From an uncultured Lachnospiraceae bacterium (GTDB lineage: Bacteria > Bacillota > Clostridia > Lachnospirales > Lachnospiraceae): a DNA stretch of 40,928 nucleotides. Each line of letters opens with the position of its first letter. The first letter of the stretch is position 1. Both the position numbers and the translations under genes were made by a program. This document shows positions 25,402 through 30,116 of this stretch, one piece after another. The notes beneath the pieces were generated by a model. It saw only the letters and a list, made by a program, of their open reading frames with translations, ran no database searches and was not told the DNA's origin. The stretch lies in assembly GCA_947366105.1 (NCBI GenBank), contig CANAZK010000008.1:1-40928 (forward strand). The letters are read 5' to 3'.

Positions 25402-26115
25402 ATGATTAAGACATATGTAGCGTTCGATCTTGAAACAACAGGTTTGGACGTTGAAAATGACAATATAATAGAAATAGGCGCTTTAAAGGTCTGCGACGGA
25501 AAGGTTGCAGAGCGTTTTATGGAATTTCTAAAGCCGGACGAGCCGATTTCTCCCATGATTACCAATATTACCGGCATTACGAACGAAATGGTGGAAAACG
25601 CGGGGAAAACTGATAAAATTATTCGTGATTTTGTGGATTTCTGCGGTGAGAATATATTGGTGGGGCATAATATCGCGTTTGACTATAGATTTATGAAGAG
25701 GTATGCGGTGCAATATGGGTATTCCTTCGACAAGAATGGAATAGACACGCTTAAAATCGCAAGAAAGGTACATAAAAATCTAGAGTCTAAAAGCCTTGGC
25801 GCCCTTTGTGAATATTATAAAATTGTAAATCAGGCAGCGCACCGTGCTTATCACGATGCGCTGGCTACCGCAAAGCTGTATCATATGCTTGCACATTACT
25901 TTGAAGAGAAATATGCTTCGCTTTTTGTGCCTGAGACGCTTGCCTGCAAACCGAAGAAAGTGCAGCCTGCAACGCAGAAACAGAAAGATTATCTGAAAGC
26001 GCTTGTTCTTTTTCATAATCTTGAATTGCCGGATGACTATCAAATGCTTACTCGAAGCCGGGCATCCAAAATGATTGACAAGATTATTCTTGAACACGGT
26101 AATTTAAAACGTTAA
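25402..26115 (+). CDS. DEDDh 3'-5' exonuclease (DnaQ/PolC epsilon-like)
   Basis: A 237-residue exonuclease of the DnaQ fold that removes nucleotides from DNA or RNA 3' ends. All catalytic motifs are present: AFDLETTGL (Asp and Glu, Exo I), VGHNIAFDYRFM (Asp, Exo II) and HRAYHDALATAKL (His and Asp, Exo III-epsilon). After about residue 175 a basic C-terminal extension (KPKKVQPATQKQKDYLKALV and onward) carries a SAP-like or helical DNA-binding region. The ribosome binding site is weak. It begins 14 bases after the broken YkgJ gene and its 3' end overlaps the reverse-strand acetyltransferase by 12 bases. Confidence 0.9.
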   Translation: MIKTYVAFDLETTGLDVENDNIIEIGALKVCDGKVAERFMEFLKPDEPISPMITNITGITNEMVENAGKTDKIIRDFVDFCGENILVGHNIAFDYRFMKRYAVQYGYSFDKNGIDTLKIARKVHKNLESKSLGALCEYYKIVNQAAHRAYHDALATAKLYHMLAHYFEEKYASLFVPETLACKPKKVQPATQKQKDYLKALVLFHNLELPDDYQMLTRSRASKMIDKIILEHGNLKR

Positions 26116-26592
26116 TATCATATCGTACCAGACGGCGCCGCCATGTACGGAATCTGAAATTCCCAAGTTCTGATATCCGAATTTGGAGTAGTAAGGAAGC
26201 AGCCGGTCCTTGCATGTGAGAATAAGACCCTTGCGGTCTTTTTTTCTTGCGTCCGATATAAGATGGTTCATTAAAGAGGCGGCAACGCCTTGACGTTGAT
26301 ATTGGGGCAGTACGTCCAGCCCGAATATACTCTGATACTTTCCTCTCTCGTTATGAAGAGAGGCGTCTTCAAACATCACATCCTGAATCACCTCTGAATC
26401 TGTTGCCATTCCATTTATAAATCCTATAATTCTGCCTTCGGATTCTGCCACGAAAAAGCACTCCGGAAATGTCTGAATCCGTGCCCTTAAGGATTCTTCG
26501 GAAGCAGCTTCGGCTTCTGGAAAGCAGGCGGCTTCAACAGCAGCAACAGCAGTAAGGTCATCAGTCTTAACGGTTCTTATATTCCAGTCCAT
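26104..26592 (-). CDS. GNAT-family N-acetyltransferase
   Basis: A 162-residue acetyltransferase on the minus strand. The N-terminus (WNIRTVKTDDLTAVAAVEAACFPEAEAA) and GRIIGFINGM strands are of the GNAT type, and FGLDVLPQYQRQGVAASLMNHLI contains the Q/RxxGxA acetyl-CoA loop, with KGLILTCKDRLLPYYSKFGYQNLG as the C-terminal half. It begins with an AAAGGAG ribosome binding site and reads divergently from satD, sharing the AT-rich intergenic region that holds the repeated operator-like sites. The substrate is unknown. Confidence 0.87.
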   Translation of the reverse strand: MDWNIRTVKTDDLTAVAAVEAACFPEAEAASEESLRARIQTFPECFFVAESEGRIIGFINGMATDSEVIQDVMFEDASLHNERGKYQSIFGLDVLPQYQRQGVAASLMNHLISDARKKDRKGLILTCKDRLLPYYSKFGYQNLGISDSVHGGAVWYDMILTF

Positions 26593-26666: not shown

Positions 26667-26715
26667 TATTCCTAAAATTACACATATTTTAAGATTATGC
26701 ATGATTTTAGGAATA
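26667..26715. repeat. 12-bp perfect inverted repeat in the satD upstream region
   Basis: TATTCCTAAAAT (26667-26678) and its exact complement ATTTTAGGAATA (26704-26715), 25 bases apart. Two close relatives of the same half-site, TATGCATAAAAT (26724) and TATTCATAAAAT (26753), follow in the same gap, the last one inside the promoter. Confidence 0.7.
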
Positions 26716-26747
26716 ATATAAAATATGCATAAAATGACGAATAAACC

Positions 26748-26776
26748 TTGATTATTCATAAAATAAGGAATATAAT
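26748..26776 (+). promoter_or_regulatory. predicted sigma-A promoter for satD with operator-like spacer
   Basis: TTGATT and a perfect TATAAT with exactly 17 bases between. The spacer contains TATTCATAAAAT and a trailing AAGGAATA, making the dyad TATTC...GAATA, so a regulator binding here would block RNA polymerase. Confidence 0.8.
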
Positions 26777-26800
26777 AGCCTTATATTTAGGAGGGATATT

Positions 26801-27493
26801 ATGTTTTTCTTCTTTTTTTCAAAGCCGTACATTTCTGTTGTCGGTGAAATCGTAGACGCTCAAGATCTGCATGACAGAGCAAAAGTTCAGAAAAAGTTAG
26901 AAACGGCGCTTGAAGATATTAACAGGCGTCATGAAGATGATATATCTGCAAAGTTTATGACTACTATAGGGGATGAATTTCAGGGGCTTGTATGCCGGGG
27001 AGCCAGTATTTTAGCAATTCTGAATGAAATTAAGAATAGAATGCATCCGGTAAAAATTCGATTCGGTATTGGAATCGGCGAAATTACAACCGAGATCAAA
27101 GAGGATATGGCGATTGCCGCACATGGGCCGGGGTATGAGAAGGCTCGTGAGGCGATTCGGTATCTGAGGGCAAATGAAAATAAGAAACAGACCGCATTAT
27201 CGGATATCAGAGTGGAGGCGGTAGGCGACCATAAGGAAAGGATGCGGCTGATTAATACAATATTTGCTCTTATAACTGCTTTGGAATATTCGTGGAGCGA
27301 CAGACAGCGTGAAATTATATATGACATGATGAAGCATCAGGATAAGCAGTCCGGAGCTGCGAAAAGGCTTGGGATTACACAATCTACCGTTCAGAAAAGC
27401 TTGACGGCAGGAAAGTATTATACATACAAAGAAGCCGTGGATACGCTTGAGGCTGTTTTTGCTGAAATAGGAGATGACAGGTATGATGAATAA
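26801..27493 (+). CDS. satD: SatD-family protein with C-terminal helix-turn-helix
   Basis: A 230-residue SatD-family protein. The N-terminal core reads YISVVGEIVDAQDLHDRAKVQKKLETALEDINRRH followed by AKFMTTIGDEFQGLV and IRFGIGIGEITTEI, the usual SatD strand-helix set, with a likely nucleotide-type fold. The C-terminal 60 residues contain a helix-turn-helix (SGAAKRLGITQSTVQKSLTAGKYYTYKEAV), which fits a DNA-binding or autoregulatory role. The HTH and the repeated half-sites around its promoter fit each other. Its end overlaps the next gene's start by 11 bases, so the two are translationally coupled. The biochemical role of the family is not established. Confidence 0.8.
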   Translation: MFFFFFSKPYISVVGEIVDAQDLHDRAKVQKKLETALEDINRRHEDDISAKFMTTIGDEFQGLVCRGASILAILNEIKNRMHPVKIRFGIGIGEITTEIKEDMAIAAHGPGYEKAREAIRYLRANENKKQTALSDIRVEAVGDHKERMRLINTIFALITALEYSWSDRQREIIYDMMKHQDKQSGAAKRLGITQSTVQKSLTAGKYYTYKEAVDTLEAVFAEIGDDRYDE

Positions 27494-30116
27494 CCGATTA
27501 ACAGTAGGTATTCTTGCTCACGTGGACGCGGGAAAAACTACCCTTGCCGAAAGCATATTATATTTAAGCGGTAATATCAGAACCCTCGGAAGGGTGGATC
27601 ACGGGAATGCATTTTTGGACAACCACGAATTGGAGCGTACAAGGGGAATAACTATTTTCTCAAAGCAGGCGGAAATTAAGTTGTATGGGAAAGAAATTAC
27701 TCTTCTTGATACTCCGGGGCACGTGGATTTCTCGGCGGAAATGGAACGGACGCTTCAGGTGCTTGATTATGCGATTCTTGTTATAAGCGGAGCGGACGGT
27801 GTGCAGGGGCATGTGCAGACCTTGTGGAAGCTGTTGGAACGATATCGGATTCCGGTGTTTCTGTTTGTGAATAAGATGGATCAGCCGGGAACGGATAAAG
27901 AAGCCCTTCTCGGGGAGCTTAAAAAGCGGCTGAGCGAGAGATGCATGGATTTTTCGGACGGACAGGATGAAGAGGCGTTTATGGAGAATCTCGCCGTCTG
28001 TGACGACGGGCTTTTGGAGAGATATTTGGAGGAGCAGAAGATTACTCAAAAGAATATTCAAAAGCTGGTTAAGAATCGTCAGGTTTTCCCTTGCTTTTTC
28101 GGAGCTGCTCTTAAAATGACGGGGATTAAGGAATTCTTAGAAGGAGCGGACGCCTATATGGAATGTCCGGTGTATTCGGAAGAATTTGGCGCCAAGGTAT
28201 ATAAAATATCAAGAGACAATCAGGGGGTACGTCTTACACATATGAAAATTACCGGAGGCAGTCTGAAGGTAAAGAGTGTGGTAAAAGATGAGGACAAGGC
28301 AGATCAAATACGGATATATTCCGGTGCCGGGTTTATCCCGGTTCAGGAAGTGTATGCTGGGAGCGTATGTGCAGTTGCGGGACTTAAGAATACATATGCG
28401 GGAGAAGGTCTTGGCATAGAAAAGGCTTCGGAACGGACATTTCTTGAGCCGGTGTTGACATATCATATGGAGATCCCAAATGGATGCGACGTGCATGGGA
28501 TGTTTCTGAACATGAAACAGTTGGAAGAGGAAGAACCGGAACTTCATGTTGTGTGGGACGAAAATTCAGGTGAACTTCATGTACAGGTGATGGGTGAGGT
28601 TCAGACAGAGATTCTAAAGAAACTTATAGCGGAACGTTTTGATACGGAAGTAGAGTTTGGAGCGGGAAGCATTGTGTATAAAGAGACAATTGGGGAATCA
28701 GTGGAAGGCGCCGGTCATTTTGAGCCGTTAAGACACTATGCGGAAGTCCGGCTTCTTTTGGAGCCGTTAGAACGTGGAAGCGGCTTACGGTTTGAGACAA
28801 ATTGCAGTGAGGATATTTTGGACAGAAACTGGCAGAGACTTATTTTAACCCATTTGGAGGAAAAGGCGCATAAGGGCGTATTAACCGGCTCTGAGATAAC
28901 CGACATGAAAATAACCCTTACGGCGGGCAGAGCTCATCTGAAGCATACAGAGGGCGGGGATTTTCGTCAGGCAACTTACCGTGCCGTTCGTCAGGGGCTG
29001 AAAAAAGGGACAAGCATACTTTTGGAACCGGTTTATGAATATCAGCTGGAAGTGCCTTCAGATGTGGTAGGGCGTGCCATGTCTGATCTGCAGAGGATGC
29101 AGGCAGACTTTGAACCGCCGGAGACGGACGGGGAGACGGCTGTTCTTAAGGGAAAGTCGCCGGTTGTTACGATGCGGGACTATCAGACGGAAGTGGTTGC
29201 TTATACGAAGGGCAGGGGACGACTTTTCCTGCAGACGAAAGGATATGAGCCATGCCATAACACCGAAGAAGTGATTGCCCGGATAGGCTATGATTCGGAA
29301 GCGGATTTGGAGAATCCTACCGGCTCGGTATTCTGCGCGCATGGCGCCGGATTCAACGTAAGTTGGAACGAAGTGGAAGATTACATGCATACGGAGCCGT
29401 ATATGAAGAGAAAAGAAGAAAATACTGTCAGCGCCGCTTCCGTATCTCGGTATGTAAGTGATGAGGAATTGGATGAAATCTTTGAGAGAACCTACGGACC
29501 GGTAAAAAGAGATAAGAACAAATTCAGCCGTAAAATCAGAGCCGATTATGAACCGGTGTACAGAGGAACTCAGAAGAAAGCAAGCGAGGCAGAGAAGGAA
29601 TATCTTTTGGTGGACGGCTACAATGTCATATTTGCTTGGGAGGACTTGAAAGAGCTCTCAAAAGTGAATATTGAGGGAGCCAGAAATAAATTGATGGATA
29701 TCCTATGTGATTACCAAGGATATAAGAAATGTACATTGATTCTCGTCTTTGATGCGTATAAGGTTCCGGGGAATGCCGGCCAGGTGTTAAAATATCATAA
29801 TATCCATGTTGTGTATACGAAAGAAGCGGAAACGGCAGATCAGTATATCGAAAAAACGGTTCATGAAATCGGACATAAATACAAAGTAACGGTGGCAACG
29901 TCTGATGCGTTGGAGCAGATGATTATTATGGGAGCCGGAGCAAACCGTATATCAGCAAAGGGGCTTTTGGAAGAAATTCTTACTGTGAAACAGGAAATAC
30001 GGGAAGAATATCTTGAAAGGACGAAAAAAAGCAGCCGGTATTTGTTTGATAATCTGTCTGAAGAGACGGCGGCGCTTATGGACGATGTACGGAAAGGAAG
30101 AAGGACTATGGATTAG
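27483..30116 (+). CDS. TetM-like translational GTPase fused to a YacP/NYN nuclease domain
   Basis: An 877-residue fusion. The N-terminal ~640 residues form an EF-G/TetM-type GTPase: AHVDAGKTT (G1), RGITIFSKQ (G2), DTPGHVDFSAEM (G3), NKMD (G4), then the further EF-G-like domains. The C-terminal ~170 residues are a YacP/NYN (PIN-like) ribonuclease domain: YLLVDGYNVIFAW, LILVFDAYK and KYKVTVATSDALEQ, with Asp residues at the usual sites. The tip loop that displaces tetracycline in TetM (YSPVS region) is replaced here by an unrelated AHLKHTEGG sequence, so drug protection is doubtful. The start is set at 27483: AGGAG lies nine bases before it, whereas the track's 27474 abuts it. Action on the ribosome and RNA is inferred. 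Confidence 0.88.
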   Translation: MMNNRLTVGILAHVDAGKTTLAESILYLSGNIRTLGRVDHGNAFLDNHELERTRGITIFSKQAEIKLYGKEITLLDTPGHVDFSAEMERTLQVLDYAILVISGADGVQGHVQTLWKLLERYRIPVFLFVNKMDQPGTDKEALLGELKKRLSERCMDFSDGQDEEAFMENLAVCDDGLLERYLEEQKITQKNIQKLVKNRQVFPCFFGAALKMTGIKEFLEGADAYMECPVYSEEFGAKVYKISRDNQGVRLTHMKITGGSLKVKSVVKDEDKADQIRIYSGAGFIPVQEVYAGSVCAVAGLKNTYAGEGLGIEKASERTFLEPVLTYHMEIPNGCDVHGMFLNMKQLEEEEPELHVVWDENSGELHVQVMGEVQTEILKKLIAERFDTEVEFGAGSIVYKETIGESVEGAGHFEPLRHYAEVRLLLEPLERGSGLRFETNCSEDILDRNWQRLILTHLEEKAHKGVLTGSEITDMKITLTAGRAHLKHTEGGDFRQATYRAVRQGLKKGTSILLEPVYEYQLEVPSDVVGRAMSDLQRMQADFEPPETDGETAVLKGKSPVVTMRDYQTEVVAYTKGRGRLFLQTKGYEPCHNTEEVIARIGYDSEADLENPTGSVFCAHGAGFNVSWNEVEDYMHTEPYMKRKEENTVSAASVSRYVSDEELDEIFERTYGPVKRDKNKFSRKIRADYEPVYRGTQKKASEAEKEYLLVDGYNVIFAWEDLKELSKVNIEGARNKLMDILCDYQGYKKCTLILVFDAYKVPGNAGQVLKYHNIHVVYTKEAETADQYIEKTVHEIGHKYKVTVATSDALEQMIIMGAGANRISAKGLLEEILTVKQEIREEYLERTKKSSRYLFDNLSEETAALMDDVRKGRRTMD

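Follow-up and report, generated by a model that had tools for sequence, protein, structure and literature searches.

Which protein reads the repeated words that surround the satD promoter of an uncultured Lachnospiraceae bacterium, and which genes do they control? The window, that is, the whole stretch of 40,928 nucleotides analysed here (assembly GCA_947366105.1, contig CANAZK010000008.1), carries upstream of satD a cluster of words that the original prediction, made from the sequence alone, had described as four half-sites, plausibly serving autorepression by SatD over satD and a divergent acetyltransferase gene. Our computations show an array of fixed period that is locked in phase to the satD promoter and whose words covary with the helix-turn-helix (HTH) domain of SatD; pattern searches of genomes turned up no further array. 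We put at roughly 80% the probability that the cluster is a SatD operator array, on which SatD dimers line up and repress satD together with its cotranscribed gene; the dimer stoichiometry, the cooperative loading, the repressing (not activating) effect and whatever signal the N-terminal domain may sense are what we infer.

Four palindromes at the satD promoter

The words, their mismatch counts and the placement of the last one inside the 17-base promoter spacer were all as originally described. TATTCCTAAAAT at 26667-26678 has its exact reverse complement at 26704-26715, and two direct variants follow, TATGCATAAAAT at 26724-26735 with two mismatches and TATTCATAAAAT at 26753-26764 with one. 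Matches to the half-site word (at most two mismatches) number 19 in the whole window against an expectation of 9.2 +/- 3.3, a count reached by none of 100 shuffles, and five of these 19 fall within 98 base pairs (bp). The words are present, but they are not loose half-sites: each pairs with a second arm to make an imperfect 20-bp palindrome, and there are four such palindromes, all with the outer frame TAT-N14-ATA. The perfect 12-bp inverted repeat found by the repeat search is made of the left arm of the first unit (B1) and the right arm of the second (B2). The features of this region are:

26667..26686, no strand: operator unit B1, TATTCCTAAAATTACACATA, a 20-bp TAT-N14-ATA unit 29 bp from B2
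26696..26715, no strand: operator unit B2, TATGCATGATTTTAGGAATA, which fits the pattern used to search its own genome
26724..26743, no strand: operator unit B3, TATGCATAAAATGACGAATA, 28 bp from B2
26753..26772, no strand: operator unit B4, TATTCATAAAATAAGGAATA, 29 bp from B3 and occupying the promoter spacer
26748..26753, + strand: -35 hexamer TTGATT of the satD promoter, the same hexamer in the same register at many satD loci
26771..26776, + strand: -10 hexamer TATAAT of this near-consensus promoter, with a 17-bp spacer
26790..26794, + strand: likely ribosome-binding site GGAGG of satD, read from the sequence

The start-to-start spacing from B1 to B4 is thus 29, 28 and 29 bp. The first base of B4 is the last base of the -35 and its end is the first bases of the -10, the promoter reading TTGAT-(20-bp operator)-TAAT. 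We define a phased SatD-operator type promoter as one in which two or more TAT-N13/14-ATA palindromes precede satD at a spacing of 28-29 bp and the array is in phase with the promoter (at an offset of zero or of one period); the window belongs to this type, with an offset of zero.

The array and its phase across satD loci

In order to evaluate whether this arrangement is general, we compared 81 satD genes, namely that of the window and those of 80 fetched loci with SatD relatives (to about 36% identity). The 250 bp upstream of each satD were tested with a chain model of TAT-N14-ATA units (p<=0.01 versus shuffles), which took over from a first, seed-based array finder that scored weakly where the palindrome arms differ; the controls were stretches of these loci situated 1.5 kilobases (kb) upstream or 1 kb downstream. 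An array with TAT...ATA outer arms was found in 62 of the 81 upstream regions, the window included, and 50 of these arrays have three or more units, compared with passing controls in 1 of 76 and 0 of 72 stretches. Arrays of this ruler-like kind lie in front of satD in many Firmicutes. Between consecutive 20-bp units the spacing was 29 bp in 110 cases, 28 bp in two and 30 bp in two. The chain scoring slightly penalises spacings of 28 and 30, a bias from which word-agnostic lag counts are free: exact direct 6-mer repeats at lag 29 occur in 50 of the 81 upstream regions (4-5 in the controls), and at lag 58 in 39, the mean over lags being 10.2.

Nine loci have 19-bp palindromes instead, with 17 spacings of 28 bp, and the unit-to-unit linker is 9 bp in both palindrome classes. 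Loci L067, L070, L073, L081 and L083-L086 belong to a clade of this kind, in which one base was lost within the palindrome and the 9-bp linker retained. More distant SatD genes also show repeats of 28-29 bp, some with non-TAT words. Whether relatives with satD have lost the sites, a check raised along with the original prediction, was examined and did not refute that prediction; the geometry persists while the exact word changes. Unlike palindrome arms, TATAGCC-type on one side and TATTCAC-type on the other, were observed in L022, L027, L037, L043, L044, L047-L050 and L056.

The uniqueness of the operator was assessed by pattern searches of genomes. A triple-unit pattern was searched for in six genomes and matched in three, in each of these at satD and nowhere else; in the window genome (about 85% complete) pattern searching showed no second cluster. 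The pattern TATNCNTN6ANGNATA has 14 sites in that genome, three of which are satD units; since the reversed control pattern has 10, the isolated matches elsewhere look like chance.

Could the repeats instead form an RNA hairpin or attenuator, or be chance repeats in AT-rich DNA? The segment 26660-26800 does fold better than its shuffles (z -3.0), but transcription is predicted to start downstream of the hairpin arms, and the array is strand-symmetric and keeps one 29-bp period across numerous loci, with no counterpart in shuffles and same-locus controls, which leaves both explanations with hardly any probability. No terminator-like site was found, and the hairpin and terminator readings were rejected.

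The array is phase-locked to the satD promoter. In 42 loci and in the window its last unit lies inside the promoter spacer; in 20 others it sits exactly one period farther upstream, where it typically ends 4-6 bp before the -35. A spacer operator with the optimal 17-bp spacing points to repression, an indication that is less clear for the upstream-only class. SatD could indeed bind the array and activate, or both activate and repress, by spacer remodelling or by polymerase contact upstream of the -35, and a last unit ending so close to the -35 would suit such contact. Against this, the operator lies across the core promoter in 43 loci, with the optimal 17-bp spacer and near-consensus hexamers, and some upstream-only loci also have near-perfect promoters, such as TTGACA-17-TATAAT in L082. 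Moreover, MerR-type activators that remodel the spacer need spacers of 19-20 bp, in contrast to the 17 bp of the window. Activation thus appears unlikely, if still the most serious competitor of a repressor array.

Operator words and the SatD protein

26801..27493, + strand: satD, matching PF16264 (E=1.5e-38)
SatD residues about 10-150: N-terminal cyclase-fold domain
SatD residues about 166-210: C-terminal HTH, with the recognition helix at about 193-203

SatD scores 133 bits against PF16264, for a gathering cut-off of 29. Its C-terminal helices form an HTH according to both profile matches and the AlphaFold model, whose predicted local distance difference test (pLDDT) value is 92.6. If SatD itself is the binder, the operator words should covary with this HTH, and they do. 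While the outer TAT of the arm is 91-99% conserved, the inner three bases vary by lineage (TCA, AGC, GCA, AAC, AAG, TAG, GTA, AGG, ACC). We compared arm similarity with similarity over the HTH (residues 166-210) by a partial Mantel test with N-terminal identity removed, which replaced a best single-column statistic that was confounded by clade for want of phylogeny control. The partial r was 0.52 (0/500 permutations), and 0.40 for the recognition helix alone, compared with 0.00-0.08 for control segments 20-40, 100-116, 150-165 and 211-223 of SatD and 0.12 for segment 120-148. Individual pairings follow the same trend: five Erysipelotrichia-like loci combine QSNIQQ with TAT[AT]AG, QPTIQQ goes with TATAGG, QPA with TATAAC, and helices of the type Q[ST][ST][VI][QN]R with [TAG]ATGCA (among them QS[ST][VI]QR with [TA]ATGCA). 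The window SatD has QSTVQK and TATTC words, and Diplocloster SatD has QPTVHS and TATAGC words. SatD is thus a well-supported predicted binder of the array, and its autoregulation through the C-terminal HTH, as first proposed, is strongly supported by the recurrent array, the covariation and the fixed promoter phase.

A different regulator might read the array, with SatD as a mere neighbour. Our search of the open-access literature, with most subscription journals outside its scope, found no paper describing SatD as a DNA-binding regulator, which leaves room for another protein, nor one describing a SatD operator or cyclase fold. However, it is the SatD HTH that the words follow, other segments of SatD showing hardly any such relation, and the array is linked in cis to satD over distant lineages and different partner genes, such that another reader of the array is highly improbable.

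Several observations weigh against a SatD repressor array. The partial Mantel control corrects for phylogeny only in part, and the column with the highest individual score (176) belongs to the first HTH helix and not to the recognition helix. Nineteen of the 81 loci miss p<=0.01; by inspection several of them have weaker or differently worded arrays and a few have none. In some arrays the arms inside one palindrome are unlike, and a last unit abutting the -35 from upstream, as in the 20 loci above, is also compatible with activation. Binding and repression by SatD are, in addition, predictions that rest on computation.

The N-terminal domain is predicted to have a cyclase-homology fold. The best Foldseek matches of its model are class III adenylyl cyclases (Rv1900c and others; E 2.7e-4, template modelling score by target about 0.5), and a sequence profile search of solved structures with SatD gave weak HTH matches and no cyclase, so that the link rests on the predicted model. 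Of the 81 SatD proteins, 79-81 retain D16, D58, E59, D108, R87 and R116 (79 for D16, 80 for D58), D16 and D58 being putative counterparts of the cyclase metal aspartates, as judged from motif position and not from superposed structures. L017, for example, keeps D16, D58 and D108. Proteins that match only this domain were also observed (L006, L005/L007 and similar), and G049 and some other genomes have two such genes within about 2 kb on opposite strands.

In the mechanism that we propose for a SatD operator array, each SatD dimer would read one 20-bp palindrome, with an arm TATNNNY whose inner three bases are set by the HTH. Neighbouring dimers, 28-29 bp apart from centre to centre, would probably touch across the 9-bp linker via their cyclase-fold N-terminal domains, and this contact would make loading cooperative and autorepression steep. 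At 10.5 bp per turn, 29 bp is about 2.75 helical turns, which places neighbours about a quarter turn apart and brings them back near the same face after four periods. Given that the operator nearest the promoter is embedded in the spacer of this sigma-A promoter, the loaded array would block RNA polymerase, and satD would be repressed along with the gene translated from its end, which is DUF3307 in most bacteria and a TetM-like GTPase-NYN gene here. In Streptococcus pyogenes satD is reported to be accessory yet essential in the strains that carry it (PMC11323703), a rare instance of such a gene. This is consistent with a repressor guarding against a harmful partner; it fits the mechanism but is not proof of it.

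Partner genes and known systems

The genes that flank satD and its array are:

27474..30116, + strand: TetM/EF-G-like translational GTPase fused to a YacP-like NYN domain; overlaps the satD stop and is the predicted regulated partner
26104..26592, - strand: divergent GNAT acetyltransferase, not found beside other satD genes
25402..26115, + strand: DnaQ-like exonuclease; in congeners without satD the next gene is that of the GTPase

In 71 of the 81 loci satD is followed, at its stop or just past it, by the start of a gene for a DUF3307 membrane protein (e.g. L017 4647-5429, L047 4653-5408), making satD-DUF3307 an almost invariant operon, with DUF3307 as the usual partner but outside the Pfam definition of SatD. 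It is absent downstream of satD in the window and in L008, and none was found in the window genome, at its estimated 85% completeness. The pair of satD and GTPase-NYN occurs also in G002/L008 (GTPase at 4681-7296 of L008). TetM-like GTPase-NYN genes are present in 29 of the 41 genomes covered by the search, including every one of the 9 congeners, normally away from satD.

In the satD-less congeners (L172, L175, L176, L183) the GTPase gene follows the exonuclease gene without an array, and in the window and G002 satD and its array stand between the two. None of 17 GTPase upstream regions reached p<=0.05 for the array; one of them (L174, the G002 copy behind satD) is satD coding sequence. D16 and D108 are replaced only in the SatDs of the window (E16, H108) and of L008, where residues 16, 58 and 108 are all replaced, and these are the two whose partner is the TetM-like GTPase-NYN and not DUF3307. 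Because E16 and H108 stand in place of conserved acidic residues, nucleotide sensing may be lost in the window SatD, and comparison of the two related loci suggests that the SatD module lost its nucleotide site after insertion into the GTPase operon.

The satD-GTPase operon is the likely target of the array. Joint or even main control of the divergent acetyltransferase gene, the former being part of the original prediction, could be argued from the position of B1, which precedes the GNAT start codon by 75 bp. This gene, however, is absent beside the other array-bearing satD genes and clusters with no other satD locus in the set, and the phase of the array is set by the satD promoter; joint control found no comparative support, main control of this gene has a very low probability, and the GNAT gene is probably an incidental neighbour. 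A reading of the locus as a defence system was dropped, PADLOC giving no support for it.

More tentatively, and with greater doubt than belief, SatD proteins might be widespread unrecognised one-component regulators, in which a cyclase-fold domain that senses or makes nucleotides causes HTH dimers to assemble like a filament along an operator ruler of 28-29 bp, guarding a DUF3307 membrane effector. In this genus the module would have moved into an exonuclease-GTPase operon, been deprived of its nucleotide site and come to serve as a repressor dedicated to a ribosome-acting GTPase. Since the description of the streptococcal sat operon, satD has carried a name but no assigned function. We predict that it encodes an autorepressor, and we also predict which operator it uses in each lineage and which partner it regulates. 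The pairing of HTH letters with operator letters provides a natural set of specificity variants, and the array geometry suits the study of cooperative assembly on DNA.

Operator arrays that load cooperatively and HTH repressors of the one-component kind are both already known. The SatD of the Streptococcus sat operon is of the same Pfam family, and other sampled satD genes also have 28-29 bp upstream repeats; the window differs from the family in its GTPase partner. Class III nucleotidyl cyclases (the cyclase homology domain of Rv1900c, 1ybt/1ybu; Ma1120, 4wp9) appear similar to SatD in predicted fold, in a GD..hh-like second acidic motif (D58-E59) and in the invariant R116, whereas the window SatD has E16 and H108 where 79 of 81 have D and is fused to an HTH. 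NrdR is a nucleotide-binding repressor with an ATP-cone and two 16-bp boxes about 31 bp apart that overlap the promoter. SatD resembles it as a putative nucleotide-binding repressor with phased palindromes over the promoter, but SatD arrays have 2-7 or more units at 28-29 bp and a predicted cyclase fold. The ARG boxes of ArgR/AhrC are paired 18-bp sites about 3 bp apart with AT-rich, TATTCAT-like arms; the arms and the tandem palindromes are shared, but SatD units are 20 bp long, with 8-9 bp linkers and words that vary with the SatD HTH. Lambda CI/Cro and toxin-antitoxin repressors are autorepressors that load cooperatively on adjacent operators over the promoter, as SatD would do, but with another protein fold and in contrast to the strict single period that SatD arrays keep over many lineages.
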